Origin: a virus
IMG/VR virus record: IMGVR_UViG_3300025118_003437
Location: 1-28,233 of that record
Direction: 5' to 3' (one strand)
DNA: 28,233 nt
In this document: in pieces, positions 3,222-26,174 of the stretch
Layout of the letters: each line of letters opens with the position of its first letter
How positions within the stretch are numbered: the stretch's first letter is position 1
The notes under the pieces: model-generated
Database searches by the model: none
Told to the model about the DNA's origin: nothing
What the model saw: the letters and a program-made list of their open reading frames with translations, nothing else
Position numbers and translations under genes: made by a program

Positions 3222-3914
3222 ATGCCCAAAAAGAAGGCGAAAAAAATAGACTTTGAGGACTGTATAGATGTTATTGACCAAGAGATTTCCAAAAGAAGAA
3301 ATAAGTGGACTCTAACTTCTATAGCTTGGATGGATTTTGATGATATTTCTCAAATTCTAAAAATACACATTTTTAAAAAGTGGCATTTGTATGATTGTAG
3401 TAAGCCTTTAGCTCCTTGGCTCAACAGAATCATATCGAACCAACTAAAAAATTTAATTCGCAATAACTATAGTAATTATTGCAAACCTTGTTTAAAGTGC
3501 GCTGCAGCGGAACCGGATTCTGCCTGCTCAATATATGGCAGTCAAGATGCCAGATGCCCCCTTTATAAAGCTTGGCTACGCAAAAAGAAGTCAGCTTATG
3601 ATGTGAAGATGGCTCTGCCCTTAGAAAAACATAAAGAGAAGCTTAATGATGTTGAGGTTTCTCCTGCGGACATAGAGCTTGGTATTGTAAAATTAAATAA
3701 AAAACTTAAAGAGGTCTTAAAGCCTAACGAGTGGATAGTCTACGAAGGCTTTTATATAATGAATAAAACAGAGCAGGAAATTGCTGAAACTCTGAATTTC
3801 AAAACTACAGAAAAAAATAGAACTCCGGGATACAAACAAATAAAAAATATACAAAAGTCTATTTTAACCAAGGCTAGAAAAATTTTAAGTAAAAATGAGT
3901 TAGACTGGATATGA
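3222..3914 (+). CDS. Sigma-70-family-like transcription factor with inserted cysteine cluster
   Basis: 230 residues. Residues about 30-85 match sigma region 2 in pattern: WMDFDDISQILKIHIFKKWH, then PLAPWLNRIISNQLKNLIRN (compare the DLxQEvfLrlw and fraWLyrIarNxxxdxlR patterns of ECF sigmas). Residues about 150-225 look like region 4, with EQEIAETLNF as the start of a helix-turn-helix and KQIKNIQKSILTKARKIL as the recognition and exit helices. Between them lies a cysteine cluster: C87, C90, C93, C102, C112, a likely metal site. It would redirect host RNA polymerase to phage promoters. It overlaps the next gene by ATGA and sits next to a zinc-ribbon gene. Confidence 0.7.
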   Translation: MPKKKAKKIDFEDCIDVIDQEISKRRNKWTLTSIAWMDFDDISQILKIHIFKKWHLYDCSKPLAPWLNRIISNQLKNLIRNNYSNYCKPCLKCAAAEPDSACSIYGSQDARCPLYKAWLRKKKSAYDVKMALPLEKHKEKLNDVEVSPADIELGIVKLNKKLKEVLKPNEWIVYEGFYIMNKTEQEIAETLNFKTTEKNRTPGYKQIKNIQKSILTKARKILSKNELDWI

Positions 3915-4855
3915 TTGATATTCCTGAATTAAAAAATACTGTTAAGATAAATAGCGAAGGCTGTGCGGAAAACTATTCGCCGGAAGACGCAGAAAGGGTT
4001 GTGGACAGTATTATTAGTAGATCTCTAAGATATCCTACTACCTATAAGAGCATAACCGAAAAAAAACAAGAGGCAAAAGAGCTAAGGCAGAAAGGTTGGC
4101 TAAAGATAGAAGGGGCCTTAAAAAACAAGATAGATTTGATTGACACGATTAGCCGAAAACTTAATTACATATTAGACGGAGGTGAAATAGAAGTTTATTC
4201 TGAGTTGGGCAGGCAATTTGGGGAGCGGAATGATAATATATTTAATCAGTCCGAAGCCAGAAATAATCAATTATTTTTATCTGTACCCGAGCCGCTTTAT
4301 AATGTCCCTGAAATATCAGATATAATTTTTGATAAGACTTTAATTGGAGTCGCTAAATCTTTTTACGGGTGTATTCCTGCTATTGGCACTCTAAACCTCA
4401 GAAAAAGTTTCGCTAATAATCTAAACAGCGAAAATACGACTATGTATCACGTAGACCCGAACTCTCCTTATTTTTTTAAAGCTTTTGTCTATTTAAAAGA
4501 TGTCGACAGTGTGGAGGATGGGCCTTTTACTTTTGTTGAGGGTAGTATAGATAATAAACCTGATAACTTACTACAAGAATATAGATGGCAAGACGATGAA
4601 ATAGAAAATTTTTACGGCAAGGATAAAATAAAACATTTAACAGCGAAAAAGGGAGATGTTCTATTTGCCGTGACCTCTGGCTTCCATAAAGGCCAGAAGT
4701 GCGTTAGAAAAGATAGAGAGCTTCTAACCATAGATTATATGTGTCATCCTGACAGTTGGGATATGAAAAAATCTATGTTCATTAAGAGAGATACCTTTTT
4801 AAACTTACAAAAAGAAGATATACCTTTAACAGACTTTTTAAAAATAAGAGTATGA
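3911..4855 (+). CDS. PhyH-type 2-oxoglutarate/Fe(II) dioxygenase
   Basis: 314 residues. The iron-binding HxD motif is H180-V181-D182 (MYHVDPNSPYFFKAFVYLKD). The distal histidine is probably H259 (SGFHKG), followed by R266/R269 for the 2-oxoglutarate carboxylate (VRKDRELLTIDY). DGPFTFVEGS (203-212) is the typical phytanoyl-CoA dioxygenase-family strand. Fe(II)/2OG oxygenases are common in marine phages, where substrates are mostly unknown; protein side chains, nucleotides or surface sugars are possible. It is translationally coupled to its neighbours (ATGA overlaps on both sides) and so belongs to the sigma-terminase operon. Confidence 0.8.
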   Translation: MIDIPELKNTVKINSEGCAENYSPEDAERVVDSIISRSLRYPTTYKSITEKKQEAKELRQKGWLKIEGALKNKIDLIDTISRKLNYILDGGEIEVYSELGRQFGERNDNIFNQSEARNNQLFLSVPEPLYNVPEISDIIFDKTLIGVAKSFYGCIPAIGTLNLRKSFANNLNSENTTMYHVDPNSPYFFKAFVYLKDVDSVEDGPFTFVEGSIDNKPDNLLQEYRWQDDEIENFYGKDKIKHLTAKKGDVLFAVTSGFHKGQKCVRKDRELLTIDYMCHPDSWDMKKSMFIKRDTFLNLQKEDIPLTDFLKIRV

Positions 4856-5952
4856 ATGACCTGACATTAACCAATGAGCAAAAGTTTGCACTTACTTCAG
4901 TAAGAGACAGTTTCCTCGCAGGGGATGATGTCGATATATCCTTAATGCATCTGATACAAGATGTTGCGGGATTCAAAGGTAAAGACGGGAGAAGCAAAGA
5001 GGGTCGTGCTGTAAAATCATATTTAAGCGAGATAGACTTCAATGCAATACCAGCTAGCGAATATCAAAAAGTCGATAAACCAGAACTATCAGAAGAACAA
5101 AAAGAGTTTCTAGGAAACCACAGAGGCACAATGAAATATGTTGAGATGTCTCGAATAATTTTTGGAGATGAGTCGTTGACAAGCCTAAGCGCCGAAACAA
5201 GGATGGTTACGGACTACTGCAAAAGTCTAGAGGGAGAAGACTTTGAGACTCCAGAAGAACAACAAGAGAGGTTTGAGTATAAACCCCCAAAGCATCCAGA
5301 TAGAGTTTTAAGCAGGGTTAATAGATTTGTTCACGACAGCGGAATAGATAAAGATAAAATTACGCCTAGACAAAAAAAGAATTTAGAAAGGTTGATGGGC
5401 TACCTTCATACCTTTAGGTTTATTCATCAGATAAATAACTACGAACACGAAACAGAAAGAGAGTTATTTGAATCTTCGTTTGTTAGATATACCAATGACA
5501 AGCCGGACTTAACTCAAGAAGAAGTAGACCAGTATATAGTCTTGTCTGGAGAAGTGGTGATAGCGTCCAATATCCAAAGAAGGGTTGGGAGACTTCAGAG
5601 ATTACTTGATGATACTGCCAACGACAACGAGGGAAGAAGGATATCAATGAGTTTAGTGGAGGCTATAAGCACGGCTACAAACGAATATAACTCTTGTGTT
5701 AATAGACAGCATAAACTACTAAGCGACCTAAAACAAAAGAGAAGCGATAGGTTGAGTAAGCAAGTCCAAGACAATGCAAGTATATTGAATCTTGTTGAGA
5801 CTTGGAAAGAAGAAGAAAGCCGAAGAGAATTAATAAAGATGGCAGAGCTAAGAAAGGGTACTATTAAAGACGAGGTGGAGAAGCTAGTAACTATGGACGA
5901 TGTCAAGGCTAGAATATTTGGATTATCAGAAGAGGAGGCTTTAAATGGATAA
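4852..5952 (+). CDS. Tandem HTH-like repeat protein, candidate small terminase subunit
   Basis: 366 residues, mostly helical and charged. Two similar segments are visible: residues about 29-60 (LMHLIQDVAGF then SKEGRAVKSYLSE) and 93-126 (MKYVEMSRIIFGDE then LSAETRMVTDYCK). Both end in E-x-R-x-V-x-x-Y and look like a duplicated DNA-binding helix unit. The C-terminal half (about 160-366) is long helical, coiled-coil-like sequence ending EEALNG. Its place two genes before the large terminase, and the DNA-binding appearance plus helical oligomerisation region, suggest a small terminase or DNA recognition protein. No direct family match is claimed. It overlaps the upstream gene by ATGA and the downstream gene by 8 bases. 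Confidence 0.55.
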   Translation: MNDLTLTNEQKFALTSVRDSFLAGDDVDISLMHLIQDVAGFKGKDGRSKEGRAVKSYLSEIDFNAIPASEYQKVDKPELSEEQKEFLGNHRGTMKYVEMSRIIFGDESLTSLSAETRMVTDYCKSLEGEDFETPEEQQERFEYKPPKHPDRVLSRVNRFVHDSGIDKDKITPRQKKNLERLMGYLHTFRFIHQINNYEHETERELFESSFVRYTNDKPDLTQEEVDQYIVLSGEVVIASNIQRRVGRLQRLLDDTANDNEGRRISMSLVEAISTATNEYNSCVNRQHKLLSDLKQKRSDRLSKQVQDNASILNLVETWKEEESRRELIKMAELRKGTIKDEVEKLVTMDDVKARIFGLSEEEALNG

Positions 5953-6901
5953 GTCTCTAAGTGAATGTATGAAAATGGAGTTTGTCTGTAAAATAGACGG
6001 AAAAAAATTCGAAACAGAAAAACAGCTCCATATGTATCTCAGAAAGTATAAGATGCGTATGGCTGAGTATTATCAAAAGTATTATCCTAGGAGAGATTTA
6101 CTTACTGGAGATTTAATTAAATTCAAAAATAAAAGTCATTATTTTTCTAATTATTTTAATTCAAGACCTAACATGAAGAAATACCTCGAGTCGGCCTCTG
6201 AAGAAGACGCTAGAAAATTTTGTGTTCAAGTAATCAAAGACAGGATAATGAGAAGGAAAATTAAGTATTCTCCTACTCAAGTTGAAATGAGGTCTTCCAT
6301 GATGCCGCCTATTTTTTATTATCAAAAGCTGTTTGGTAATTACTACGATCTTTGTTATGAGCTTGGACTATTAAAAAGATTTAAAAGAGTTCCTAAAAAT
6401 AAAATCAAAGAAAGTATAGAAGAAGGCTATGAAATCATTGTTGATACAAGAGAGCAAAAGCCATTAAATATAAACTACGGCACAAGAAGAGAGGGTCTGA
6501 AATTTGCGGATTATTGGCTCGATAAAGAGAACAATAAGTGCTTCGTAGAAAGAAAAGAGACGAAAGACTTTATAGGTACTTTTACTGGCGGTTGCGAAAG
6601 ATTTTCTAGAGAGCTAGGGAGAGCAAAAGAGCAGGGCGCTTATGTCGTAGTAGTTGTTGAAAACTCTTTAGATAACATGATGAAATTTAATTACCTAAAG
6701 TATATCACAAAGAAGGTTCAGGTAACCCCAGAGTATGTGATGAGAAATGTTCGAGACATAATACAAAATCATGACAACGTACAGTTCTTATTTGCAAAAG
6801 GAAGAACAGAAGCTACTAGGTTAACTAGGAAGCTTTTCTTTTGTGGTCAAAACTATAAAAATGTAGATCTACAGCTAGCTTATGATCTTAATCTATTGTA
6901 A
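5945..6901 (+). CDS. ERCC4/XPF-type nuclease
   Basis: 318 residues. The C-terminal half carries the ERCC4 nuclease pattern: IIVDTREQ (165-171, D167 catalytic), DYWL (189-192) and the signature VERKETKDF (201-209), which satisfies ERKxxxD. Next come RFSRELGRAKEQGAYVVVVV and a likely closing Glu (VVEN). The N-terminal half (FVCKIDGKKF, LHMYLRKYK, YYPRRDLLTGDLI) is a separate basic module, perhaps for DNA binding, ending near a GNYYDLCYELGL motif. The strong GAGGAGG ribosome site lies within the end of the upstream gene. It ends one base into the terminase start. It may resolve branched DNA ahead of packaging, or act in replication. Confidence 0.8.
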   Translation: MDKSLSECMKMEFVCKIDGKKFETEKQLHMYLRKYKMRMAEYYQKYYPRRDLLTGDLIKFKNKSHYFSNYFNSRPNMKKYLESASEEDARKFCVQVIKDRIMRRKIKYSPTQVEMRSSMMPPIFYYQKLFGNYYDLCYELGLLKRFKRVPKNKIKESIEEGYEIIVDTREQKPLNINYGTRREGLKFADYWLDKENNKCFVERKETKDFIGTFTGGCERFSRELGRAKEQGAYVVVVVENSLDNMMKFNYLKYITKKVQVTPEYVMRNVRDIIQNHDNVQFLFAKGRTEATRLTRKLFFCGQNYKNVDLQLAYDLNLL

Positions 6902-8754
6902 TGTGGTCATCTCCTGCAAAATACAAAAAAGAAATCGAAGATGTTAATGCTAAATTAGCAAAGCTGGAAGGATCTCTAGAAGACAAACAAGCACGCAGTA
7001 CCCTAGCTGAATTTTTAAGAAATAATTTATATTTTACTACGTATCTTTTAAGTGGTATAAAGTTAGCGCCTTACCAAGAAATAACTTTAAGAGCCTTATT
7101 TAATAGAAATTTTAGTATGTGCGTATGGGGTCGAGGATGTGGCAAAAGCTTCATAGCTTCAATATTTTGTTTTTTGCAATGTATATTTGAACCCAATACA
7201 AAGATACTAATAGCTGGCCCAACATTTCGTACTGCAAGATTTATTTTCAATAACATAGAAAAGATAGTAGAGACAAAAGAAGCCGCTCTTTTGGCTCAAG
7301 CCTTCGGAGCCAAGGTAAAAAGAAACGACCAGTATGAGTGGAGAATAAACGGAGGCACTATAACAGCCATCCCTTTAAGCGGAGAAAAGATTCGTGGTTT
7401 CCGCGCTAACATACTTGTACTTGACGAGTATCTTTTGTTGCCGGAAGACATAATCAAAAACGTACTCATGCCATTTCTCGTTGCCCCTCAAGACATGAAG
7501 AGAAGGATGGAAATCAAAGAGATCGAAGATGGCTTAATTAAGGAGGGCGTAATCAAAGAAGAAGATAGGACTAAGTTTGAAAATAAGTCTAAAATGATAG
7601 CGCTGTCTTCAGCTAGCTATACTTTTGAGAATCTTTACAAGACCTACCAAGAATGGATTGGGAAAATACAATCAGACGAACAAGAAGGAGACGCTAAATA
7701 CTTTGTATCTCAAATGGGGTATGAGGCTTTACCAAGGGAGATGATAGACAAGACTATCATTGACGAAGCCCAAGAAGGAGGGTCTTCCCACTTTTCGTTC
7801 CAGCGAGAATATTGCGCTCAGTTTACAGATGGAAGTGATAGCTACTTTAGCGCAAAGAAGATGGAGATGTGCACTTTGAAAAGTGATGAAGAACCATCTA
7901 CTCTTATGGTCGGCAGAACAGGTAGGCGTTATGTAATGGGAATTGACCCCAATATGAGCGATAGTCCTACGGCCGACTACTTTGCTATGTCTGTCATAGA
8001 GATAGACGACGATACGGGTCAAGGTACCTTAGTGCATACTTATGCGGGACTTGGAAGCCTAAACAAACATGTAAAATATTTAGCTTATTTACTTCAGGCT
8101 TTTAATATTGTTTTTATATGTCTTGATAATGCTGGATCCGATACCTATTTAGATAGCTGTAATGAATCTCAATTCTTTAAAGATGCTAGAATAAATTTAA
8201 AAACCATACCCTTAAACTCAGACGCAGAAGGAATAGAATATCAAAAAACTTTGAGACAAGCTAAACAAAAATACAATCAAGAAAACCATCAAATTTGTTT
8301 TAATCAAGTATTTACTAGTAATTTCATACGTAGAGCTAATGAACACCTACAGGCCTGTATAGACTATAAAAAAATTTGGTTCGCTTCTAGGACGGCTTCA
8401 AATGAATTATTTTTTAATAGAACTAGTTCTATAAGATTACCCTATCCTAAAAAATTAGTATTTATTGATGACCGAAAAGAATGGTCTATGCTTGACTTTA
8501 TTGAGCATCAAGATGATATGATTTACCAAACTAAGAAACAATGCAGTTTAGTAGAACATAAGGCAACCGCAAGGGGGTCTCAGAATTTTGACCTACCTCA
8601 GCACCTAAAAAGGTCCACTTCTGTAAACAAAGCAAGAAAAGATAATTATTCCTCATTAATGTTGGCAAATTGGGGTCTTAAACTTTATAACGACATAAAT
8701 AAGGTCGAAATCGACACTAACAAGGAAACTTTCGAGCCTATTATGCTTTTTTAA
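6901..8754 (+). CDS. terL: Terminase large subunit (TerL)
   Basis: 617 residues. ATPase: Walker A GRGCGKS (77-83) and Walker B ILVLDEY (171-177, with D175 and E176), then a coupling motif ALSSASY (234-240). Nuclease of the RNase H fold: GIDPNMSDSPTADY (D349), ICLDNAGSD (D409) and HQDDM (D538/D539). It drives DNA into the prohead at the portal and cuts it at the end of packaging. Length and motif spacing fit gp17-like terminases. It follows the ERCC4 nuclease with a 1-base overlap and is followed by a promoter-like motif, so the head module that follows probably starts a new transcript. Confidence 0.95.
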   Translation: MWSSPAKYKKEIEDVNAKLAKLEGSLEDKQARSTLAEFLRNNLYFTTYLLSGIKLAPYQEITLRALFNRNFSMCVWGRGCGKSFIASIFCFLQCIFEPNTKILIAGPTFRTARFIFNNIEKIVETKEAALLAQAFGAKVKRNDQYEWRINGGTITAIPLSGEKIRGFRANILVLDEYLLLPEDIIKNVLMPFLVAPQDMKRRMEIKEIEDGLIKEGVIKEEDRTKFENKSKMIALSSASYTFENLYKTYQEWIGKIQSDEQEGDAKYFVSQMGYEALPREMIDKTIIDEAQEGGSSHFSFQREYCAQFTDGSDSYFSAKKMEMCTLKSDEEPSTLMVGRTGRRYVMGIDPNMSDSPTADYFAMSVIEIDDDTGQGTLVHTYAGLGSLNKHVKYLAYLLQAFNIVFICLDNAGSDTYLDSCNESQFFKDARINLKTIPLNSDAEGIEYQKTLRQAKQKYNQENHQICFNQVFTSNFIRRANEHLQACIDYKKIWFASRTASNELFFNRTSSIRLPYPKKLVFIDDRKEWSMLDFIEHQDDMIYQTKKQCSLVEHKATARGSQNFDLPQHLKRSTSVNKARKDNYSSLMLANWGLKLYNDINKVEIDTNKETFEPIMLF

Positions 8755-9915: not shown

Positions 9916-11835
9916 ATGACAAGAAAAAAAACAACAAGTAAAAAAGAAGAAGAAATTCAGCCAATGATGAGCAGTTTCGCGGCATCACCTTATACCACCT
10001 TAGACAACCAATCGACAAGACAGCGCAGGAACGTAGGTGGACAAATAGATAGGACGAACAGGTTTGAAAATATTGATAATGGACTAGTCCCCTATAAGTA
10101 CACAAAAGGCGTTAATAATAAAAGTTCTCTTGATGTTAGAGATGTGGTAATTCTTTGTCAAAAAGCCTATTATAATTTTGCGGTATTTAGAAATGTTATT
10201 GATTTAATGACAGAGTTTTCTTCGACGAATCTTTACTTCACGGGTGGCAGTAAGAAGTCAAGAGATTTTTTGGATGCTCTTTTTAAGAAAATTGATATAC
10301 AAAGTTTCCTAGATAGATTTTTTAGAGAATACTATAGATCAGGAAACGTTTTTATTCATAGATTCGACACTAAGATTCAACCAGAGGATTTAAAAAGAAT
10401 TACCCAAACTTATGGTGGCGGGAAATTAAGCTCCTTAGGGTACGGAGAGGACAGCAAGCTTCCTTCTAGATATATTATATTAAATCCAGCCGATATTCAA
10501 ATGGGAGGTAATATATCATTCTTTTCTGGAATGTATTATAAAACACTAACGGACTACGAACTAGAAAGAATCAAAAATCCAAAAACAGAGGAAGATAAGC
10601 AAGTCTATGATGCCTTAGACCCAGAGACAAAGAAAGCTTTAAAAAGCAGGAATATAGGGATTATTTCCCTTAGGTTAGACCCAGATAAAGTTACTCCTGT
10701 GTTTTACAAGAAGCAAGACTATGAACCATTTTCTGTTCCATTGGGATTTCCAGTTCTAGAAGATATCAACTGGAAGTCTGAAATGAAGAAAATGGATATG
10801 GCATTAACAAGAACCACCAACCAAGCGATACTACTTATCACAATGGGGTCCGAGCTGAAAGACGGCAGCCTAAATATAAATCAGAGAAGTATAGAGACAA
10901 TGCAAAAGCTTTTCGAAAATCAATCTGTTGGAAAGGTTCTTGTTTCAGACTACACTACCAAAGCTCAATTTGTTATTCCAGATATAGCTGGCATCTTGGA
11001 TCCTAAAAAGTACAGTGTTGTAAATCAAGATATTCAAATGGGGCTTAACAACATTTTGGTTGGCGAGGATAAGTTCGCTAATACAAGCATTAAAATTCAG
11101 GTATTTATCGAAAGGCTAAAGCAGGGAAGAGACGCTTTCATAAATCAATTCCTTTGTCATGAAATAAAGAGGATTTGCAAATCTTTGGGTTTTAAAAATT
11201 ATCCAAAGGCAAATTTCCAAGAGATAGAGCTTAAAGACAAGACTACTTGGAACAGGGTCGTTGCTCAACTTATTCAATATGGTATTCTTACCGCAGAGGA
11301 AGGTTTGGAGGCGATTAGCTCTGGCAGGCTCCCAGAACCCGAAGAGTCTGTCGAGTCACAGAAAAAATTCAGAGAGCTCAAAGAACAAGGCTACTATTCT
11401 CCTCTACTTGGTGGAGGAGGAGATAATCAATCAGAGAAAGAGGGAGCAGGTAGACCTAGCGGAACACCTTCACCACAGACCACAAAGAAGGTTACCCCTA
11501 TAGGGGAGAAGACCTCCGGTTCCCAAAAATTTAGCGTAGAAAAAATTAAAGAAAATTTGACGCTAGCCGAAAAGCTAGAAACAGAGATTCAGGAAAAACT
11601 CAAATTGAAATATGAGAACAAAAGAGTAACTAACAAAATTAGAAGTCTATCTTCTGAATTGAGTAAAATAGTTATGGCCAATGAATCTTCTGATAAATGG
11701 CTAGAGAAAGTTAGTGAATATATTAATAACCCAACAGATACTAACGAAAAAGCTATAAAAGAAATACAAAGTATAGCTTTGGAGCATCAAGTGGATGAGT
11801 ATCTAGCAGGTTTATTGTATGCAAGTAAGGTTTAA
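9916..11835 (+). CDS. Portal protein
   Basis: 639 residues. The central region follows the portal pattern: YYNFAVFRNVIDLMTEFSST (85-104) and REYYRSGNVFIHRFD, then a crown/wing region with a helical stem (GLNNILVGEDKFANTSIKIQ, ERLKQGRDAFINQFLCHEIK). After about residue 495 comes a Gly-rich linker (GGGGDNQSEKEGAGRPSGTP) and a helical charged tail. The dodecameric portal forms the unique vertex, is the docking site for the terminase, and nucleates capsid assembly. It directly precedes the tubulin-like gene with a 3-base gap. Identity rests on pattern and gene order; a distant T4 gp20-type relation is likely. Confidence 0.85.
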   Translation: MTRKKTTSKKEEEIQPMMSSFAASPYTTLDNQSTRQRRNVGGQIDRTNRFENIDNGLVPYKYTKGVNNKSSLDVRDVVILCQKAYYNFAVFRNVIDLMTEFSSTNLYFTGGSKKSRDFLDALFKKIDIQSFLDRFFREYYRSGNVFIHRFDTKIQPEDLKRITQTYGGGKLSSLGYGEDSKLPSRYIILNPADIQMGGNISFFSGMYYKTLTDYELERIKNPKTEEDKQVYDALDPETKKALKSRNIGIISLRLDPDKVTPVFYKKQDYEPFSVPLGFPVLEDINWKSEMKKMDMALTRTTNQAILLITMGSELKDGSLNINQRSIETMQKLFENQSVGKVLVSDYTTKAQFVIPDIAGILDPKKYSVVNQDIQMGLNNILVGEDKFANTSIKIQVFIERLKQGRDAFINQFLCHEIKRICKSLGFKNYPKANFQEIELKDKTTWNRVVAQLIQYGILTAEEGLEAISSGRLPEPEESVESQKKFRELKEQGYYSPLLGGGGDNQSEKEGAGRPSGTPSPQTTKKVTPIGEKTSGSQKFSVEKIKENLTLAEKLETEIQEKLKLKYENKRVTNKIRSLSSELSKIVMANESSDKWLEKVSEYINNPTDTNEKAIKEIQSIALEHQVDEYLAGLLYASKV

Positions 11836-11838
11836 AAT

Positions 11839-13029
11839 ATGAGCGAAAATCAAGAAAATATCCAAGATGTTAATCAGTACTTCGGTGCTGAAGGAATAGA
11901 TGTTATGGTCCCGGACATTCCGTTGCCGCCAGAGCCAGAAGAGAAAAAAGAAGTAAAAGATGAAGTAGAGGGAGCGTTTAAATTTGCTTTCGTTGGTGCC
12001 GGGCAAGGCGGTTCTAGGATCGCAGAGAGTTTCCATAAGCTAGGCTATAGGAAAATTGGCGTTATAAATACAGCTCAGCAAGACCTTAATTCTATTAACG
12101 TGGAAAATAAGCTTTGTATTGGCTCGGGTGGAGCTGGAAAAGATAGAGCTGTCGCAGCTAAGTGCTTCGAGGAGAAGAGGGATGACGTTTTAGATTTCAT
12201 GCGTCGCTCTTTTGGAGAAGATGTAGATAGAATTTTTGTTTGTGCAGGTGCTGGCGGAGGTTCCGGCGCAGGAACTCTTGTACCTCTTGTTAAAACCGCT
12301 CAAGAATTACAAGAGACAGTGAAATCTGGATCCAAAAAAGTTGGTGTCATACTAGCCCTACCTAAATACTCAGAGGGAAGAAAGGTTAACTCTAATGCTT
12401 ACGAGACTCTAAAAGAGGCTTGCGCTTTAGTGGATCAAGGAATAGTATCACCTCTAGTTATTATTGATAATGAGAAGACTAGCAAGCTTTATTCAAATGT
12501 CTCTGTTTCTAATTTTTGGCAGACAGCTAATATGAGCACGGCTGGCGTATTTCACTTGTTTAATATGACGGCTTCTAGAGACAGCTCGTACTCATCTTTT
12601 GATTCTAGTGACTATAAAAGTGTTTTGGATTCCGGTATTACTATCTTTGGTGCTACGCCGGTTCCTCAATGGGATGACCCAGTAAGCATTTCAAGGGCTG
12701 TTAGGGGCATAGCTCAAAGTGGCAGTATGTCTGGTGGCATTGATATATCCACAGCAAACGTTGCTGGAGCCATACTTATTGGAGGTAAAGAGGTTCTGGA
12801 CAAGATCCCTCAATCTAATCTTGACCAAGCCTTTGATCAGTTGAGCAGAATATTAAGGTCTGGGAGTATGGTGCATAGAGGTATATATAGTGGGGACAAA
12901 GACAACCTTACGGTATTCACCACTATCGGGGGAATAGCTACTCCTCAAGAAAAATTAAACGAGCTAATGAAACTTGGGGATTTGACCAACCAAACAGATC
13001 CACAGGAGGACACACCGGATAAAGCTTAG
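11839..13029 (+). CDS. FtsZ/tubulin-like GTPase
   Basis: 396 residues. T1 loop FVGAGQGGSRI (51-61); T3 region IGSGGAGKDR (94-103); tubulin signature CAGAGGGSGAGT (135-146), corresponding to GGGTGSG; and T7-loop region SFDSSDYKSVL with D255 and D258 at the spacing of the two catalytic Asp of FtsZ (DxxD). An acidic, Pro-rich N-terminal tail (1-45) and an acidic C-terminal tail frame the GTPase fold. Phage tubulins (PhuZ, TubZ-like) are known to centre DNA in infected cells, but here the gene lies between portal and the head genes. A head-assembly or positioning role is inferred. GTP-dependent polymerisation is expected because the catalytic residues are retained. Confidence 0.85.
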   Translation: MSENQENIQDVNQYFGAEGIDVMVPDIPLPPEPEEKKEVKDEVEGAFKFAFVGAGQGGSRIAESFHKLGYRKIGVINTAQQDLNSINVENKLCIGSGGAGKDRAVAAKCFEEKRDDVLDFMRRSFGEDVDRIFVCAGAGGGSGAGTLVPLVKTAQELQETVKSGSKKVGVILALPKYSEGRKVNSNAYETLKEACALVDQGIVSPLVIIDNEKTSKLYSNVSVSNFWQTANMSTAGVFHLFNMTASRDSSYSSFDSSDYKSVLDSGITIFGATPVPQWDDPVSISRAVRGIAQSGSMSGGIDISTANVAGAILIGGKEVLDKIPQSNLDQAFDQLSRILRSGSMVHRGIYSGDKDNLTVFTTIGGIATPQEKLNELMKLGDLTNQTDPQEDTPDKA

Positions 13030-13097: not shown

Positions 13098-13697
13098 ATG
13101 GCAAACAAAGATAATACGTTCATTTTAACAACCGCCAAGAGCAAGCTATCTAACTTAACTAGTGGTGACGGAAACCACGGAATAAAATATCTGATTGGTG
13201 ATAGCGTAGTGGGACCGCACGAGACTTTTGTGGGTGGTCCAACTGGTATCGTGATCCCAATCACAACTGAGGCTATTGCTGCTGCAGATGTGGATCCAAC
13301 CCAGACCCACGCATCTACAAATACTTTGGGAGACCCAGCTGTCTCTGAGTACGCTTTAACATCCGGAGATCTTATAGCTTCCGCGGGTGCCGCTGGAGCA
13401 AGAGAGAAAAACGGTGGAGCTCAAAAATTTATTAACGCTGTTCTTGATGGTGCGTACAGAGGCTATACTTCCGGTGTAGCCCAAAGCAGTGGCTTAAATT
13501 CCATGACGGTTACTAGAGGCTCTTTGAGTTTGTCTAGTACGGCCATTAATGATGGAACAGGCATTGTTAACACCTATACAAGATCTTATACTGTAAACTT
13601 TAAGTATTATCAATCTGGTACAATCAACGCCTCTGGCTCGTTTGATCCGGCAACTACGGATATCGCTAACGATGCTTCCAACGGCGTACCGTTCTAA
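13098..13697 (+). CDS. Putative virion structural protein of unknown type
   Basis: 199 residues, Gly/Ala/Thr/Ser-rich, with no cysteine. The N-terminus is MANKDNTFILTTAKSKLSN; an Ala-rich helix-like stretch lies at about 90-105 (LIASAGAAGAREKNGG); the C-terminal half is beta-rich (SLSLSSTAINDGTGIV, YTRSYTVNFKYYQSG). I do not recognise a family; decoration or tail-tube-type proteins have this composition. It has a strong AGGAG ribosome site, a promoter-like motif just upstream and an intrinsic terminator just downstream, so it is a single-gene transcription unit inside the head module, consistent with high dosage. Confidence 0.65.
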   Translation: MANKDNTFILTTAKSKLSNLTSGDGNHGIKYLIGDSVVGPHETFVGGPTGIVIPITTEAIAAADVDPTQTHASTNTLGDPAVSEYALTSGDLIASAGAAGAREKNGGAQKFINAVLDGAYRGYTSGVAQSSGLNSMTVTRGSLSLSSTAINDGTGIVNTYTRSYTVNFKYYQSGTINASGSFDPATTDIANDASNGVPF

Positions 13698-13726
13698 GAA
13701 GTAAGGTTTGCATTTCCCTATTTAAA

Positions 13727-13764
13727 GACCCCTCATTTATTTGAGGGGTTTTTTTATTTTTTTT
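13727..13764 (+). terminator. Rho-independent terminator
   Basis: ACCCCTCA (13728-13735) pairs with TGAGGGGT (13742-13749), a perfect 8-bp stem with a 6-base loop, followed by TTTTTTATTTTTTTT. It lies 30 bases after the stop of the 13098 gene. Confidence 0.93.
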
Positions 13765-13808: not shown

Positions 13809-14261
13809 ATGGAATCCATTCGTAAAATGATGTCGCTTGATGTAGAGTACTCTTATGGTAAAAAATTTGCTCCAGTTTCTGGAGAAAAAGACGCGGCTTT
13901 AGAATTCTCTAGTAGGGTCATGCAGCTCTTAACTAGTAAAGCAAATCAGCATAACTACACAAACGAAGAACAAGTTACCTCTGAGGGATTAAAGGAAATT
14001 TTTGTAGACAATCTTTCTGAATCTTTACAAATTACTCAAGCTTTGGCTAATGTGAATGTCTTTCTGAACATCTGCTCTGCTGGACTTGTGGATGATGGGG
14101 ATCATTTCGAACCTTCTATGGAGGAAATAAAAGAAGCCGAAAGGGAAGTAAAAAGGCACGGCTTGGCAAGTTATGACTTCAGAGACGTAGATGATTTATA
14201 TTTTCAAAGTGACGAGCAAGCCAGATCAGAAGCGAAAGACTGGTTAAATAGTGTAATTTAA
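13809..14261 (+). CDS. Conserved-looking head-module protein of unknown function
   Basis: 150 residues, acidic and mainly helical, with patches such as AALEFSSRVMQLLTSKANQH, LSESLQITQALANVNVFLNI and a very acidic C-terminal part (VDDGDHFEPSMEEIKEAERE). One cysteine; no membrane segment. I do not recognise its family. It begins the transcription unit that leads to the protease-scaffold and major capsid genes, so a head assembly chaperone or internal head role is possible. Confidence 0.6.
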   Translation: MESIRKMMSLDVEYSYGKKFAPVSGEKDAALEFSSRVMQLLTSKANQHNYTNEEQVTSEGLKEIFVDNLSESLQITQALANVNVFLNICSAGLVDDGDHFEPSMEEIKEAEREVKRHGLASYDFRDVDDLYFQSDEQARSEAKDWLNSVI

Positions 14262-14278: not shown

Positions 14279-14572
14279 ATGGCCAGATCAACAAATTCAC
14301 AACAGACGCAGGGAGTGCCTTCTGTATCAAGAACGGCTAATAAAGCAGGAGCCGGTGCTGTGGTCGCAGCAAGCAGTGGGGATACCGTCGTAATCACAGA
14401 CATATTAGCTTCAGCGGCTACTACTATTAGTACCTTGGCGGCAGGGGGAGGTACTATTATAGCTTATGTTCCGGCTGGATCGACAAGTTTAAACCAAGGC
14501 ATTCCAGTACCAACTAGTTCCGGCGTTTTCAGTAGTGCTGGTAACGTAACAGTGAACTATTATATAACCTGA
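14279..14572 (+). CDS. Small beta-rich virion-type protein
   Basis: 97 residues, preceded by AAAAGGAC as ribosome site. Ala/Gly/Thr/Ser-rich with a short hydrophobic beta pattern (DTVVITDILASAATTIST, GGGTIIAYVPAGSTS, SAGNVTVNYYIT). No charged C-terminal tail. Composition suggests a capsid-associated decoration or cement protein; family not recognised. The stop overlaps by one base the start of the protease-scaffold gene (TGATG), so the two are translationally coupled. Confidence 0.6.
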   Translation: MARSTNSQQTQGVPSVSRTANKAGAGAVVAASSGDTVVITDILASAATTISTLAAGGGTIIAYVPAGSTSLNQGIPVPTSSGVFSSAGNVTVNYYIT

Positions 14573-16032
14573 TGAAATATACTACAATCTTCAGCTCAAA
14601 CGTAAGGCCTGTCGTATCAGAAGAAAAAGATAAGTATTTAGCTTTGGCTTCTGCTATCGAAGTCGCTCAATTTATTCCAGAAGTAGATGAGAAGCAGGTT
14701 GACTTGCTTCCCATAGCTTTTAATGCATTTGTGGCTAACAGAGTTAATAGAAATGGAGACGTAGTTGATACAGATACAGCTTTAGCCTTTCATAAAGATT
14801 TTAAAAATAAACCAATTAATATAGAACATAACAGAGATAAAGTAATTGGTACTATTTTAACAGCAGGTTTTTCAGAATTTGGAACAGATAAGCCATTAAC
14901 AGAAGAAGAGGTAAAAGATATAAAAGGACCTTTTAATGTTACTCTAGGTGGAGTTATCTGGAAAGTAGTAAACCAAAGAATAGCAGACTTGATTGAAGAG
15001 TCAGCCGACCCAAGCAGCGAAGACTTCATGAGGATTAGTGCTAGCTGGGAGTTAGGCTTTAGAGATTATAATTTGGTGCTTTTAGACGGAAGTGATAAAA
15101 ACATAGAAAATGGGCTCATTGTTGATGACGAAGAAGAAATCGCAGACATGGAAAAAGATCTAAAAGCTCTTGGGGGAGAAGGTAAAACTAAAGACGGAAT
15201 GTCTGTCTATAGAAAGGTTGTGGGAGAGGTCGTACCTCTTGGAATAGGACTGACCGAAACTCCCGCTGCCGACGTAAAGGGCGTGTCAACCAAGAAGAGC
15301 GTTGAAGAGCCCAAAGAAGAAAAGACTTTTGCTGAAGTTGATAAAACTTCACAAATACAAGAAAAAAATGTAATAATCCAAAACGAGGACAAAGCTATTA
15401 TGAAAATAGAAAGTATTAAAGACATCACGAACGAGTCTTTGAAGGAGCTTTCTGCCTCGGCTGTTTCTGATTTTATCGAATCGGAACTCAAGGAAGCTTC
15501 CGAGAGATTTTCAGCCGAAAAACAAAAGGTGGAAGCTAATCTCAAAGAAGCTCAAGAGAAAATCGCATCTATTAATGTAGATTACGATAAAGTCAAAGCA
15601 GAACTAGGAACTGTTACGGAAAAGCTTGGCGCGCTGGAAACTGAAAAAGCGGTAAAAGAAGCCGAAGAGTTGTTCTCTCAGAGAATGGCCTCTTTGGACG
15701 AAAAATACGCTCTTGAGGATACGGATCGCGAAGTTCTTGCCACGCAGGTTAAAGATCTCGATGTTGAAGGCTGGGAAGCTTTCGCAAAGAATCTCGAAGT
15801 TCTGCTGAGAGACAAGTCAAGAGAAGTCTTGGCTAAAAAGGAAGACGAAGCTTCTAAGGAAGCTGAAGTTGAAGAAGAGACAAAAGCTTCTGATGAAGTT
15901 GTGGACGAGGCTATCGAAAGAGGCGAAGAAGAGGAAAGTGCTATTCCAGCATCTACCGAAGCTTCTGAAGGTTCCACCTACGATAAGTATAAGAAAGCTT
16001 TTGAAATCGATCAATTTGATATTAATTACTAA
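14572..16032 (+). CDS. Prohead protease fused to scaffolding protein
   Basis: 486 residues. The N-terminal domain (about 40-240) fits a phage capsid maturation protease: FNAFVANRVNRNGDVVDT, KNKPINIEHNRDKVIGTIL (H86 the likely catalytic His) and DFMRISASWELGF (S156 or S158 the likely nucleophile). Residues about 277-470 are a long, highly charged coiled coil rich in Glu, Lys and Ala, as in scaffold proteins, ending YDKYKKAFEIDQFDINY, a typical capsid-binding tail. The fusion would deliver the protease inside the prohead. An in-frame ATG at 15400 with a ribosome site could make the scaffold alone. It precedes the decoration and major capsid genes. Confidence 0.8.
   Translation: MKYTTIFSSNVRPVVSEEKDKYLALASAIEVAQFIPEVDEKQVDLLPIAFNAFVANRVNRNGDVVDTDTALAFHKDFKNKPINIEHNRDKVIGTILTAGFSEFGTDKPLTEEEVKDIKGPFNVTLGGVIWKVVNQRIADLIEESADPSSEDFMRISASWELGFRDYNLVLLDGSDKNIENGLIVDDEEEIADMEKDLKALGGEGKTKDGMSVYRKVVGEVVPLGIGLTETPAADVKGVSTKKSVEEPKEEKTFAEVDKTSQIQEKNVIIQNEDKAIMKIESIKDITNESLKELSASAVSDFIESELKEASERFSAEKQKVEANLKEAQEKIASINVDYDKVKAELGTVTEKLGALETEKAVKEAEELFSQRMASLDEKYALEDTDREVLATQVKDLDVEGWEAFAKNLEVLLRDKSREVLAKKEDEASKEAEVEEETKASDEVVDEAIERGEEEESAIPASTEASEGSTYDKYKKAFEIDQFDINY
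15400..16032 (+). CDS. Possible nested scaffold-only product (internal start)
   Basis: The ATG at 15400 (Met277 of the longer protein) is preceded by ACGAGGAC, a purine-rich ribosome-site-like run at good distance, and begins MKIESIKDITNESLKELSA, right at the junction of protease and coiled coil. It would make a 210-residue scaffold without protease, as lambda Nu3 is made within the C protease gene. No direct evidence of use. Confidence 0.4.
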   Translation: MKIESIKDITNESLKELSASAVSDFIESELKEASERFSAEKQKVEANLKEAQEKIASINVDYDKVKAELGTVTEKLGALETEKAVKEAEELFSQRMASLDEKYALEDTDREVLATQVKDLDVEGWEAFAKNLEVLLRDKSREVLAKKEDEASKEAEVEEETKASDEVVDEAIERGEEEESAIPASTEASEGSTYDKYKKAFEIDQFDINY

Positions 16033-16727: not shown

Positions 16728-17891
16728 ATGAGACTTAAATTGAAAAACACCCCTGAGCAGGTTGAACTCATCAAAGCGATGGGTAACAAAAACCAGCTCG
16801 TCGCCCGTGAGGCGCAAGAAGCTTTTGCAGCTTTTCTAGGCCCTGTAGTCCGTAAGGTTCTACAGCAGGCCGCAACGGCCGGAGCGGTTTATACCGATGC
16901 TCCGTTTAATCAAGATGAGGGAGCTAGCTATCCTTTGGATCTTTATTATAACGAAACCAATGATGGTTACGTTAGCGTTTGGTCGCAGAATGTCGCTGGT
17001 GGTCTTCCCACTTCGCAAGACGTATCTGCTGTCCAAGAGTTGAAGATCGCAACTTATCGTTTGGATGCAGCTGTTTCTATCACCAAGAAGTATGCTAGAC
17101 AAGCAAGACTTGATGTTGTGAGTAAACTTATTGAGCGTATGTCTCAAGAGGTTCTCGTTAAGCAGGAAAGAAATGCTTGGGCTGTGGTGCTTAATGCACT
17201 CGCTAACGCTAGTACTTCTTCTGTTACTGCGGATTCTGTTGGAGTCACGGATTTGGCTACAGGTAGTCACGTTATTCCAGCTTACAACACTAATAGATTC
17301 CAGTTGGCCGACTTGAACAAGTTGATGACTCTCAATAAGAGAATCAATCAGTCTTGGGCAGACGGTACTCCTGATGCTGCTTACAGCAACGGTATTACCG
17401 ATCTGTACGTCAGCCCTGAGATCAAAGAGCAGATTCGCGCTTTTGCTTATCAGCCAATGAACACTGTTCAGGCTACTAGTGGCACTAGCTCTATTCCGCT
17501 ACCAGACAACATTAGAACAGAAGTGTTCAATTCTGCTGGTATGCAGGAGATCTATGGTGTAAACATCGTTGAGCTCAATGAGCTTGGTATTGGCCAGAAG
17601 TACAACACCGTCTTTGACGAGTTTGATTCAGGCAAAATCGCCCCTCATGCTAGTACCGCCGGAACGGCTATTGCGTTCGCTGGTGGGACTCATGAGCTCG
17701 CAGTTGGCGTTGATAATAGCAAGGGTGCGTTTGTTCGCGCTATCGCTCAAGACGCTGATACTGGTGACACCTTCACGACTAGCCCAGATGATCAGTTCAC
17801 TCAGAGAAATGAGAGAATTGGTTTCTATGGTTCGTTGGAAGAGGGTCGCGTATGTATCGACGCTCGTGCAGTTGTTGGACTCGCGGTCTAA
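16728..17891 (+). CDS. Major capsid protein, HK97 fold
   Basis: 387 residues, with a strong AAGGAG ribosome site. Position after protease-scaffold and decoration genes, length, and pattern all fit: a helical N-arm (LVAREAQEAFAAFLGPVVRK), an E-loop-like part (GASYPLDLYYNETNDGYVSV), a spine helix (LDVVSKLIERMSQEVLVKQE), a P-domain strand (NGITDLYVSPEIKEQIRAFA) and a C-terminal YGSLEEGRVCIDARAVVGLAV. No extra Ig or decoration domain. Third-position C is frequent, suggesting high expression. A strong terminator lies 24 bases after the stop, so this is the end of the head transcript. The N-terminus could be trimmed by the protease; no cut site was identified. Confidence 0.88.
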   Translation: MRLKLKNTPEQVELIKAMGNKNQLVAREAQEAFAAFLGPVVRKVLQQAATAGAVYTDAPFNQDEGASYPLDLYYNETNDGYVSVWSQNVAGGLPTSQDVSAVQELKIATYRLDAAVSITKKYARQARLDVVSKLIERMSQEVLVKQERNAWAVVLNALANASTSSVTADSVGVTDLATGSHVIPAYNTNRFQLADLNKLMTLNKRINQSWADGTPDAAYSNGITDLYVSPEIKEQIRAFAYQPMNTVQATSGTSSIPLPDNIRTEVFNSAGMQEIYGVNIVELNELGIGQKYNTVFDEFDSGKIAPHASTAGTAIAFAGGTHELAVGVDNSKGAFVRAIAQDADTGDTFTTSPDDQFTQRNERIGFYGSLEEGRVCIDARAVVGLAV

Positions 17892-22049: not shown

Positions 22050-22086
22050 TTTTGAAATTCGACCTTTTGCTATTTAAAACTATTTG

Positions 22087-23121
22087 ATGAACAATGCTCC
22101 CTTTTTTGAGGAGGCCGCGCCTTTATTTAATACAAATAAACAAAGAGGCCAAGAAAAATCTAAAGATGTTGCTATAAAGCTAAACTCCTTTTCTTTTGGA
22201 GATACTTTATCAGCTACGCCAACGATAAGAAAGTTAGCGGAGTATTACGCTAAAAAAATAATAGTGTGCACGCATAAACCTTTTCTTTTTGAGCACAATC
22301 CATATGTTCTTTTTACGATACATGTAGATGATTTTAAACAAGAACATTATGATAAATACGAGGTCTTTGATACTTTTAATTCAATAGGAAAGGCAGATAG
22401 AGCTGGGATAGAAAAAAAATACGCAGCTTTCGATATAAGAAAGATACATTGCACGGAGATAGGCTTTGACTTGATGCCAGAAGAGCTTCATTGCGATTAT
22501 TACCCCGGAACAATAGAGTTTAATAGAGGTGACCAAGACTTTCTAGCTAATAACAAATACGCAGTTGTTCATATAGGACAAAATTGGCCTAGTAGAACTT
22601 GGCCAAAAGAGAGCTACGTTAATTTGATAAGAGGGCTGAATAGAAATCACCTAAAGGTTGCGTTAGTTGGGTTTGATCAGAAACCTGAGCCGGGCCAATA
22701 TAACCACGATAAAACTTGCTATAATTTCGATGCTTTAGATTTTGAAGGAGTAAGTTTTTTAAATAGAACTTCCTTAGATCAAGATTATTATATAACCAAG
22801 AACTCAGAGGCTTGCGTGACTATGGATACAGGACAGCTACATCTGGCAGGCTGCACTGACGCTCATATTATATTTATAGGAGCTTCTGTTCACCCTTTTT
22901 GGAGAGCTCCCTACAGAAAAGGAAGTCAATCTTATAAAATGACTTTCGTCGGTGGCACGTGCGAAGCTTTTTGTGCGTCGGACCCAAAGTATTCTGTTAT
23001 AGAGCACGGTACCGTTAATAGTGTTCCCCCTTTGCCTTTTTGCTTAGAAGGGAGGCCTAATTTCGACTGTCAACCTAGGTGGGAAGACGTTCTTTCTTCT
23101 ACCTTAAAAGTTACAGAATGA
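22087..23121 (+). CDS. Glycosyltransferase family 9-like (heptosyltransferase-type)
   Basis: 344 residues from the ATG at 22087. The GT-B pattern of GT9 is visible: SFGDTLSATPTIRKL (36-50) in the N-terminal acceptor domain, and VVHIGQNWPSRTWPKESYVN (160-179) and MDTGQLHLAGCTDAHIIFIG (246-265) in the sugar-nucleotide domain. Four Cys near the C-terminus (C292, C296, C319, C328) recall the metal finger of the TibC-type proteins downstream. Expected to transfer a heptose or other sugar to lipopolysaccharide or protein. First gene of a four-gene operon; it overlaps the next gene by ATGA. Confidence 0.82.
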   Translation: MNNAPFFEEAAPLFNTNKQRGQEKSKDVAIKLNSFSFGDTLSATPTIRKLAEYYAKKIIVCTHKPFLFEHNPYVLFTIHVDDFKQEHYDKYEVFDTFNSIGKADRAGIEKKYAAFDIRKIHCTEIGFDLMPEELHCDYYPGTIEFNRGDQDFLANNKYAVVHIGQNWPSRTWPKESYVNLIRGLNRNHLKVALVGFDQKPEPGQYNHDKTCYNFDALDFEGVSFLNRTSLDQDYYITKNSEACVTMDTGQLHLAGCTDAHIIFIGASVHPFWRAPYRKGSQSYKMTFVGGTCEAFCASDPKYSVIEHGTVNSVPPLPFCLEGRPNFDCQPRWEDVLSSTLKVTE

Positions 23122-26100
23122 AAAGAAAGATATTATTTATACCCATGCATCTTTCTACTGGTGGGTCTCCTCAGTGGCTGCATGAGCTTATAAAAGTCTG
23201 TTTGTCGGAGAACGAGGTTTTTGTAGCTGAGTTTAATAATTACGGTTCCTATAATATACAAAAAGACAGGATAATAAATTTAGTTGGCAAAAAGAATTAT
23301 GAATGTATTGGTCCGTGTTTTTCGGATAATTGGATAGAAGAAAGGGGTAAGTTACTAGAAGTTATAAAAGAATTTGATCCTCATATAATACATTTTAACG
23401 AAATACCTGAAAACTTTGAATACAATGGATTCCCCGAAGAATTACTTGAAAAAATATATAACGAAAACAGAAGTTATAAAATATTAGAAACTTGCCATTC
23501 TAATGCTTTTGATTTTGCCAATAAGGTTCATCAGCCTGATGCGTATGTGTGCGTTTCAGATTACCACCCAAGAAAAATAAAAGAGGTTTTCCCTGAGGCT
23601 AAGTGTTATACTTGGGATTATAAGATACCCAATAAGGAGAGACCCGACAGAGATAAAACTTTGATGAGCCTTGGACTAGACCCAACAAAAACCCATATAC
23701 TAAATGTTGGTCTCTTTCACGAAAATAAAAACCAGAAGTTTATTTATAAAATAGCAGAAGAAATGCTAGATGAAAATATTCAGTTTCATTTTATAGGAAA
23801 CAGCTGTTACCTATGTAATTGTGGCATTGAAAACACAGATCTACTTAATTGCAAAGTATGGGGAGAAAGAAAGGATGTGGATAGATTTTATTCATGTATG
23901 GACTTGTTTTTCTTTCCGTCGATAAGGGAGTTAAACCCGCTGAGTGTTAAAGAGGCATTATCTTGGGGTATGCCTGTATTAATGAACAGGATAAAATCTT
24001 GTGATTTATACAAAAAATACGAAAACAATGACAATGTAATTTTTATAGATGATGTAAATACAAAAGAGTATATAGAAAAAACTATAAAGAACCCTAGAAA
24101 AAAAGAAGATTTTAGAATAGCTTTGTATACAAGTTTTTATAATAACGCTAGATATATAACGGGCGTATATAAACAAATATGCAGCCAGACTTACGAGGAC
24201 TGGAAGTGGTTTGTTACAGATGACTTCAGCAAGGATAGCGCGGTTAAAGACACTTTAGTTGACTTAGCTTCAAAAGATAATAGAGTAGTATACTGTGAGC
24301 AAAAAACTAAAAAAGAGATGTTTTGGAATCCTCAACATTTTGTTACTAAAGATTGCGACTACTTAGCTTTAGTAGATGCGGACGACGGAATATACCCTAA
24401 AGCTTTAGAGTTTTTAAATCATATGCTGAAAAAGAACCCTGAGGCTTTTTCTTTTTCAACATGGTTCCATCAGTATAGTAACGATATAGACAGCACGGAT
24501 AACATCACTAATCTTGATTACTCTTTTCCTAAAGACAATTGGTGCGACTACTTAGATAAGCATGAAAAAGACCTAATAAATTCAGGAGAATTCGACTGGT
24601 CATACTTAAGAACTTTTAGGTTCTTTGGGGCTCTAAGGGGGCACAAGAACGATAAGCAAGTTGAGATAGAGGTTCAGAGTCCTGTAGAGACGGTATCAGA
24701 AGACTCTATAAGGATGGCGCAGCTTCAAAAGTATGGAAATTATGTACTTTTTCCTAGGCCTATGTACAAGGTGCTTAACCATGACGAGTCTCACGCTACG
24801 CCTTCAAACGTAACCAATGAACAAGGTAAGGTGGGTAAGTTAAATTTATATGACTCTATAAACTCTACAAAAAACTTCAAGCATAACGTAATACTCCACA
24901 CTTACTATAGATTCTTTGACGAGCTTTGTGCGTTGGCTAGATCTGATATACATTTTGAAAAAAATAGAAAGAGACTTTGTTTGATCACCAATAAAGAAGT
25001 ATCTGATTCAGAAAAGAATAAAATACAGGACCTATATTTTGATCATGATTTTTGTGTTAACGAGTATTCTGAAAAGGTTGATTATTTCTTTTTCGATGCT
25101 AATAGCTTTAATGATAACGAACTAAAAGACATATTTACAAAACTAAAAAGTATAAAAAATAATTTTGATTTAAATATTTATTCTCTTTTAAGTAAAGAAG
25201 ATAGAGAGGTAATGGATAAAGCTATCTCGAGAGTATCGAATATTTTTCATGGCCTCGTCTTCAGATGGAATACTTTTTGTAGAAATTTAGTTTTTAATAT
25301 GAAGTTTAAAAATTTAAAAAAGAAAGTCTTAATCGAGCTTTGCAGTTCCTCTCTAGGAGATAGTTTGGCTTGGGTTCCGTATGCAGAAGAATACAGAGTG
25401 CAAAAAGATTGCGATGTCCACTTGTTTACTTTTAAAAATGATTTGTATAGAAATAGCTACCCTGAGATAAAGTTCATTGATGACTTAAAAGAAGTTGAAG
25501 GCGAGAATTTTCATGATCATCTTAAGATAGGCTGGTTTAATCATACTCCTGACTGGGTTAAGCAAAATGAAGAGCAAAGAGCTGCGTCTTATTATTTGGG
25601 CTTAGAGCATAAAGAGTTAAAACCTAGGGTTGATATAAATAATAAAGAAAGGATGATCTCGGGCAAATATGTCTGCATATCCGTTCAATCTACGGCTCAA
25701 TGCAAGTACTGGAATAATCCTGATGGGTGGGATAAGGTTGTAGAGTACTTAAACTCAAAAGGGTATCAGGTAGTGTGCATAGATAGGCATGAGTCTTTTG
25801 GGGGAAGAAATAGAGACAACCGTATACCCTCCGGGGGTATAAATAAAACTGGAGACTTCGACTTGCAGGAGAGAATAACAGATTTATATCATTGCGAGTT
25901 TTTCATAGGTTTAGGCTCTGGCCTGTCTTGGCTGGCTTGGGCTCTGAACAAGGACGTGGTTTTAATAAGTGGATTTAGCAATGAGGAAACAGAATTTTAT
26001 ACGCCATACAGAGTAATCAATAAAGACGTTTGTAATTCCTGTTGGAATAATCATAAATTTGATGCTAGTAATTGGAACTGGTGCCCGGAACACGAAGGCA

Positions 26101-26174
26101 CAGAAAGGGAATTTGAATGTTCAAAATCTATAACTTTTGAAATGGTTAAAGAGCAGATAGATAAATTAATATGA
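23118..26174 (+). CDS. Three-domain glycosyltransferase: GT4, GT2 and TibC-like heptosyltransferase
   Basis: 1018 residues from the ATG at 23118, which overlaps the previous stop. Domain 1 (about 1-325) is GT4-like, with LNVGLFHENKNQKF and the EX7E motif ELNPLSVKE (271-279). Domain 2 (about 332-600) is GT2-like: RIALYTSFYNNARYITGV and DAD at 420-422. Domain 3 (about 735-1018) resembles the autotransporter heptosyltransferases (TibC/BAHT): SSSLGDSLAWVPYAEEY, SVQSTAQCKYWNNPDGWDKV, GLGSGLSWLAWALNK, and a Cys finger C972-x2-C975-x13-C989-x11-C1001. TibC carries an iron-binding four-Cys finger. A linker region of unclear fold spans about 600-735. The fusion suggests sequential assembly of one glycan. 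Confidence 0.82.
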   Translation: MKRKILFIPMHLSTGGSPQWLHELIKVCLSENEVFVAEFNNYGSYNIQKDRIINLVGKKNYECIGPCFSDNWIEERGKLLEVIKEFDPHIIHFNEIPENFEYNGFPEELLEKIYNENRSYKILETCHSNAFDFANKVHQPDAYVCVSDYHPRKIKEVFPEAKCYTWDYKIPNKERPDRDKTLMSLGLDPTKTHILNVGLFHENKNQKFIYKIAEEMLDENIQFHFIGNSCYLCNCGIENTDLLNCKVWGERKDVDRFYSCMDLFFFPSIRELNPLSVKEALSWGMPVLMNRIKSCDLYKKYENNDNVIFIDDVNTKEYIEKTIKNPRKKEDFRIALYTSFYNNARYITGVYKQICSQTYEDWKWFVTDDFSKDSAVKDTLVDLASKDNRVVYCEQKTKKEMFWNPQHFVTKDCDYLALVDADDGIYPKALEFLNHMLKKNPEAFSFSTWFHQYSNDIDSTDNITNLDYSFPKDNWCDYLDKHEKDLINSGEFDWSYLRTFRFFGALRGHKNDKQVEIEVQSPVETVSEDSIRMAQLQKYGNYVLFPRPMYKVLNHDESHATPSNVTNEQGKVGKLNLYDSINSTKNFKHNVILHTYYRFFDELCALARSDIHFEKNRKRLCLITNKEVSDSEKNKIQDLYFDHDFCVNEYSEKVDYFFFDANSFNDNELKDIFTKLKSIKNNFDLNIYSLLSKEDREVMDKAISRVSNIFHGLVFRWNTFCRNLVFNMKFKNLKKKVLIELCSSSLGDSLAWVPYAEEYRVQKDCDVHLFTFKNDLYRNSYPEIKFIDDLKEVEGENFHDHLKIGWFNHTPDWVKQNEEQRAASYYLGLEHKELKPRVDINNKERMISGKYVCISVQSTAQCKYWNNPDGWDKVVEYLNSKGYQVVCIDRHESFGGRNRDNRIPSGGINKTGDFDLQERITDLYHCEFFIGLGSGLSWLAWALNKDVVLISGFSNEETEFYTPYRVINKDVCNSCWNNHKFDASNWNWCPEHEGTEREFECSKSITFEMVKEQIDKLI

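Follow-up and report, generated by a model that had tools for sequence, protein, structure and literature searches.

The window (the whole stretch of DNA analysed, 28,233 nt) is the IMG/VR record IMGVR_UViG_3300025118_003437 of an uncultured virus of bacteria, and is probably a fragment. The genes of its head block are all on the plus strand and include the gene for the large subunit terminase at 6901-8754 (PF03237; phrog_2, E 9.5e-27) and the portal gene at 9916-11835 (639 aa). The portal assignment is supported by PHROG portal families, with phrog_16240 matched by 16 of 29 members of the portal gene (best E 7e-7), and by portal folds in the PDB, where the 50 best matches to an AlphaFold model of modest confidence are all portal or connector proteins (best E 2e-7). 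Its stop codon ends at 11835 and the ATG start codon of a tubulin/FtsZ-like GTPase gene (11839-13029, 396 aa) lies at 11839. The gap of 3 bases between a portal gene and a tubulin gene, reported in the preliminary description of this DNA, is thereby confirmed.

The next CDS, at 13098-13697, codes for a 199 aa protein without assigned function. It gave no match in family searches, and follows the tubulin gene only in the clade to which the window belongs. Behind it is a terminator-like hairpin with a T run (13724-13763, plus strand; 12-pair stem), the likely end of a transcript carrying portal and tubulin. This is followed by a conserved head-block gene (13809-14261) that, in relatives lacking the tubulin, is found directly after the portal gene. 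A protease-scaffold gene and a capsid gene had also been proposed downstream, and of these the capsid gene has weak family support: the CDS at 16728-17891 probably encodes the major capsid protein, a weak but consistent assignment based on sub-threshold matches to PF25209 (Phage_capsid_4) in 8 of 19 members (best E 4e-4). The CDS at 14572-16032 received no family support in database searches, and is a putative protease-scaffold gene by position and sequence.

Several other features were seen elsewhere in the window. At 933-1755 there are two short, similar and divergently transcribed CDS, the products of which resemble the beta domain of MscS channels, one having a sub-threshold match to PF00924. 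The gene at 3222-3914, conserved and located ahead of the terminase, has sub-threshold similarity to sigma-70 region 2 and may specify a late sigma factor, and a phytanoyl-CoA dioxygenase-like protein (3911-4855; sub-threshold PhyH) is found in some close relatives only. A protein with an ERCC4-type nuclease domain (5945-6901; PF02732, over cut-off) is encoded directly before the terminase in most relatives. The region 22084-27055 holds a cluster of three glycosyltransferase genes, two of them matching O-heptosyltransferase TIGR04414 (one over cut-off) and the other heptosyltransferase-like, and the contig ends in a low-complexity repeat (27549-28229) that, in one frame of the minus strand, encodes PEVPDEPEVP-type repeats. 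PADLOC gave no match for a defence assignment. No relative was found when 84,980 species genomes were scanned by alignment for a host.

The tubulin-like protein

By family, fold and residues, the CDS at 11839-13029 is a real GTPase of the tubulin/FtsZ superfamily. In a Pfam search the protein scored 45.9 bits against PF00091 (Tubulin; cut-off 33, E 1e-11), and it matched the FtsZ model TIGR00065 with an E value of 2.6e-16 and 59.9 bits, well under the FtsZ equivalog cut-off of 295.2. The closest solved protein by sequence is RepX/TubZ (E 3.6e-14 by phmmer against the PDB, and 5.7e-22 in a profile search). An AlphaFold model built from 29 relatives (pLDDT 81, pTM 0.81) has the complete two-domain tubulin fold with the central helix H7. 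Its structural matches are headed by TubZ (Z 35.5 over 336 residues, 3.7 A, 19% identity) and CetZ2 (Z 34.9), tied within 1 Z, with FtsZ at about 30-31. PhuZ is absent among the PDB structure matches listed, and no weight is placed on this absence. Profile searches lead to TubZ and FtsZ, and the fold search to TubZ, CetZ and FtsZ, in agreement with the superfamily originally assigned.

The catalytic residues are retained across the family. An alignment of 30 diverse members shows invariant positions in the T1 nucleotide loop (GAGQGGSR, residues 53-60, 11995-12018, plus strand; G53, G55, Q56, G57, G58 and R60), in the T4 tubulin signature (GAGGGSGAGT, residues 137-146, 12247-12276, plus strand; G140, G141, G143 and G145) and in the T7 catalytic loop (SYSSFDSSDY, residues 250-259, 12586-12615, plus strand; F254, D255 and D258). 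Both T7 aspartates are thus invariant, and the T1 loop, glycine-rich signature and T7 DxxD first noticed in the single sequence are found to be general. Nearly no positions of the C-terminal domain are invariant in the same alignment. Codon comparison gave a dN/dS of about 0.04, close to the values for portal and terminase and indicating strong purifying selection, a figure that is approximate because synonymous sites are near saturation.

Shortly ahead of the tubulin core, family members have a conserved peptide of the form D-hydrophobic-x-x-P-[DE]-...-P. In the window this is IDVMVPDIPLP (residues 20-30, 11896-11928, plus strand), of which D21 and P30 are invariant in 30 members. The N-terminal region varies from 36 to 141 residues among members, the longest values depending on the start codon chosen. 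In the AlphaFold model, residues 1-36 have a pLDDT under 50, and the peptide is predicted to be disordered. It is present in all genomic contexts in which the family occurs, which suggests that its partner is probably the tubulin itself, a host factor or a general phage factor, and not this particular portal. At the other end of the protein, the final helix of the model spans residues 370-379 and is followed by an unstructured end, so that the helix H11 with extended tail typical of PhuZ is not seen; several members end even ahead of the last helix, and the C-terminal helix and tail are short or missing in the family.

Distribution and genomic context of the family

Scans of IMG/VR revealed over a hundred loci of uncultured viruses with a tubulin of this family, at least 89 of them distinct (89 at the time of counting). 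Among cultured phages the sole relative found is gp138 of Bacillus phage G (23.6% identity). A gut contig with an FtsZ-like match (H5) was set aside. PhuZ and FtsZ were included in a first tree only, and their placement was rejected because branch lengths of 9-10 make it meaningless; both were dropped from the second tree. In the latter, the members do not cluster with known TubZ, all of them being split from five plasmid tubulin-like proteins and phage G by a branch with support of 100/99. Tubulins adjoining a portal gene form one clade in the best tree, at a support of 49/97 with which their monophyly is not established, and the non-adjacent tubulins, a single clade in the first tree (99/99), were broken up in the second after rows were added. 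The PhuZ family phrog_4733 was matched by 3 of 30 members (best E 1.5e-4), and the protein of the window was unmatched at E 0.01. A literature search, with 2025 work on chimallin/phuz phages outside its reach, found no paper on a tubulin adjoining a portal. On sequence grounds, these phage tubulins make up a new subfamily, unnamed and widespread, the position of which is unusual and strongly conserved, and the separate 100/99 branch, along with the lack of a description in the literature searched, favors the earlier view that it represents a distinct and little-described clade.

The linkage to the portal gene is indeed tight, as had been claimed. The gap between the two genes is no more than 30 bases in 66 of the 78 distinct loci that have both, the remaining 12 having 1.3-4.7 kb of other sequence between them, and a gap this short between terminase and portal is found in only 11 of 68 loci. 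No terminator-like site was detected in the portal-tubulin interval of the loci scanned and this, together with the short gap, makes it likely that the two genes share a transcript. In the clade of the window a terminator recurs about 0.7 kb past the tubulin stop codon, behind the 13098-13697 gene, and in several more distant clades the first terminator after the tubulin is downstream of the capsid gene. Terminator counts overall were at the level of shuffled sequences, and confidence in the site at 13724 comes solely from its recurrence at the equivalent position in relatives. A promoter scan gave no more matches than were found in shuffles.

A portal-based scan, which was independent of the tubulin, returned over 600 relatives, and 80 of these were kept. 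A structural protein would be expected wherever the homologous head block is present, but in 19 of the kept loci the terminase, portal and scaffold genes occur without a tubulin. The empty sites are about 30 bases long; in L232, for example, the portal gene (end at 9908) is followed by a conserved gene from 9942 on, and L214 has only the tubulin gene added between this pair. The records of the tubulin-less phages, fragments of up to 97 kb, showed no copy at any other position. On the portal tree, the portal of the window is sister to those of the tubulin-less L211 and L232 (100/99), and the distribution of the tubulin requires at least four changes between presence and absence. A subclade (L204, L206, L264-L268) has the tubulin gene between terminase and portal. 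Some of the tubulin-less loci (L198, L203, L220, L235, L244, L251 and L259) carry 3.7-7.5 kb of other sequence between the portal and scaffold genes, and with other inserts at this flank the adjacency of tubulin and portal may reflect an insertion-prone site.

Related tubulins are also found in quite different surroundings. In two records of 211 kb and 120 kb, the tubulin is the sole match among 12 profiles, with no detectable homologue of the head genes described above, and these proteins are 54-55% identical to that of the window. In L110 the tubulin gene faces away from a terminase-like gene and is near primase-, nuclease- and helicase-like genes, and in L270 it is placed between RecA-like and DnaB-like genes (names read from sequence in both cases). 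The 158 kb record L066 has terminase, portal and tubulin genes and is unmatched by the scaffold and capsid profiles; the contig may end ahead of them. The absence of the gene from the same head block, its alternative placement between terminase and portal, and the distant copies indicate that the tubulin is an accessory, transferable module, present or absent on one and the same head block and also carried by phages without these head genes. The most economical account is transfer from one phage lineage to another, the gene being lost or gained next to the portal.

Proposed role and alternatives

Taken as a whole, the reading that is favored, with modest confidence, is that of a GTP-hydrolysing, filament-forming tubulin that represents a new subfamily, is transcribed together with the portal gene and most likely positions DNA or proheads. 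From the fold and conserved residues, GTP would be bound in the T1-T6 pocket, and subunits would join head to tail, each triggering hydrolysis in the next through its T7 aspartates and so giving rise to dynamic filaments. In its lineage the tubulin would be expressed with the late head operon, and the filaments would most likely position replicated DNA, or carry proheads to DNA, late in infection, improving yield without being essential. The N-terminal peptide, replacing the C-terminal tail of TubZ and PhuZ, would probably recruit cargo or a partner, or else strengthen the contact between subunits.

PhuZ filaments both position the nucleus of the phage and transport capsids (PMC13282480), and PhuZ is also an accessory, missing from one third of its family (PMC10299810). 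It is this analogy, along with the company of head genes in one lineage and of replication genes in others, that makes DNA positioning or capsid delivery most likely. Neither chimallin, which forms the nuclear shell (11 large records), nor a phiKZ-type RNA polymerase (5-11 large records) was found in the records searched, all of which are fragments. A nucleus need not be involved, and the PhuZ system, the nearest precedent in function, is not reproduced here. Two other observations count against the favored reading: the C-terminal helix and tail with which PhuZ polymerises are short or missing, and the linkage to the portal, including the second placement directly before it, exceeds what a purely general role would need.

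The position of the gene had earlier been taken to suggest a link to head assembly. As such a factor, the tubulin would bind the portal or prohead and help to nucleate, locate or mature heads, or be packaged in the virion, and the conserved linkage, the probable common transcript and a second placement (the terminase-portal interval) that also touches the portal are all in its favor. Sister phages, however, use the same head block without a tubulin, copies with 54-55% identity occur where terminase, portal and capsid profiles find nothing, and the other inserts at the portal flanks (3.7-7.5 kb) allow adjacency to be a property of the site. The argument from position is therefore weakened, and a head-assembly factor is considered unlikely; it is more likely that the adjacency reflects expression timing and a site prone to insertion than that the tubulin has a structural part in the head. 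Prohead delivery, which had been suggested alongside head assembly, belongs to the favored reading. A more specific version, in which the tubulin of an inherited portal-tubulin pair docks on the portal vertex or an adaptor via its N-terminal peptide and so brings proheads to the DNA, along filaments or together with them, is distinctly improbable. If true, such a portal-docking tubulin would constitute a cytoskeletal system for prohead delivery outside the nucleus-forming phages.

Interference with host FtsZ, through co-assembly or through competition for partners by a DIP-like N-terminal peptide, might block division or remodel the host cell. FtsZ is among the matching families, and the peptide of many members contains D-I-P, reminiscent of the DIP core in the C-terminal peptide of FtsZ. 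These letters are not kept in all clades (e.g., DISLPDDIMMP), a poison would have no need of an invariant T7 loop and complete catalytic core, and the identity to FtsZ is only about 20%, leaving this explanation very doubtful. Least likely of those weighed here is partition of the TubZRC type, by which the tubulin would segregate a plasmid-like or pseudolysogenic phage genome, even though no solved protein is closer in sequence than TubZ, which is also one of the two top matches by fold, and a phage TubZ serving segregation is on record (PMC7824862). The gene is located in a head block, and its upstream neighbor, at 3 bases, is a 639 aa portal, where plasmid TubZ has a gene of about 100-115 aa. 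An adjacent TubR-type small gene and an iteron centromere are both lacking at the locus, with no iteron-like repeat array near the tubulin gene, although a distant TubR may lie elsewhere in the genome.

Few phage tubulins have been studied well: PhuZ, from phages that form a nucleus, and TubZ, which certain phages and plasmids encode. The family described here has a complete catalytic core, and it includes tubulins of phages between which no homology of terminase, portal or capsid was detected. This points to the tubulin cytoskeleton as a transferable accessory that tailed phages have outside the nucleus-forming family as well. Its patchy presence on a conserved head block provides a natural with/without experiment on the benefit of a cytoskeleton to a phage, and the conserved N-terminal peptide offers a specific handle on the partner of the tubulin.

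Comparison with known tubulins

The nearest solved relative by sequence, and top by fold, is TubZ (plasmid RepX/TubZ; PDB 4ei7, 2xka). The T7 loop of the window's tubulin has FDxxD where TubZ (4ei7) has FDASE, the locus is without the small upstream TubR-like gene and the repeat array, and the family has an N-terminal peptide, with the C-terminal helix and tail short or absent. PhuZ (phiKZ gp39; phrog_4733) is likewise a tubulin fold encoded by phages, with a patchy, accessory distribution (PMC10299810), but phiKZ gp39 has other neighboring genes and does not share the position next to a portal. The anatomy of the two is also reversed: PhuZ of phiKZ lacks a significant extension at the N-terminus and has a C-terminal H11 and tail that are involved in polymerisation (PMC3678025), whereas the protein described here has its conserved peptide at the N-terminus. 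FtsZ and CetZ share the fold and catalytic loops, at an identity of only about 20-23%. Among viral proteins, gp138 of phage G, annotated as putative FtsZ-like, sits among nucleotide-metabolism genes and is on a separate branch. The best match in a viral structure library is A0A6J5RW92 of an uncultured member of the Caudovirales (E 2.8e-32, 26% identity), which is named FtsZ Cell division GTPase and may be a member of the subfamily found in the window, or of a near one.
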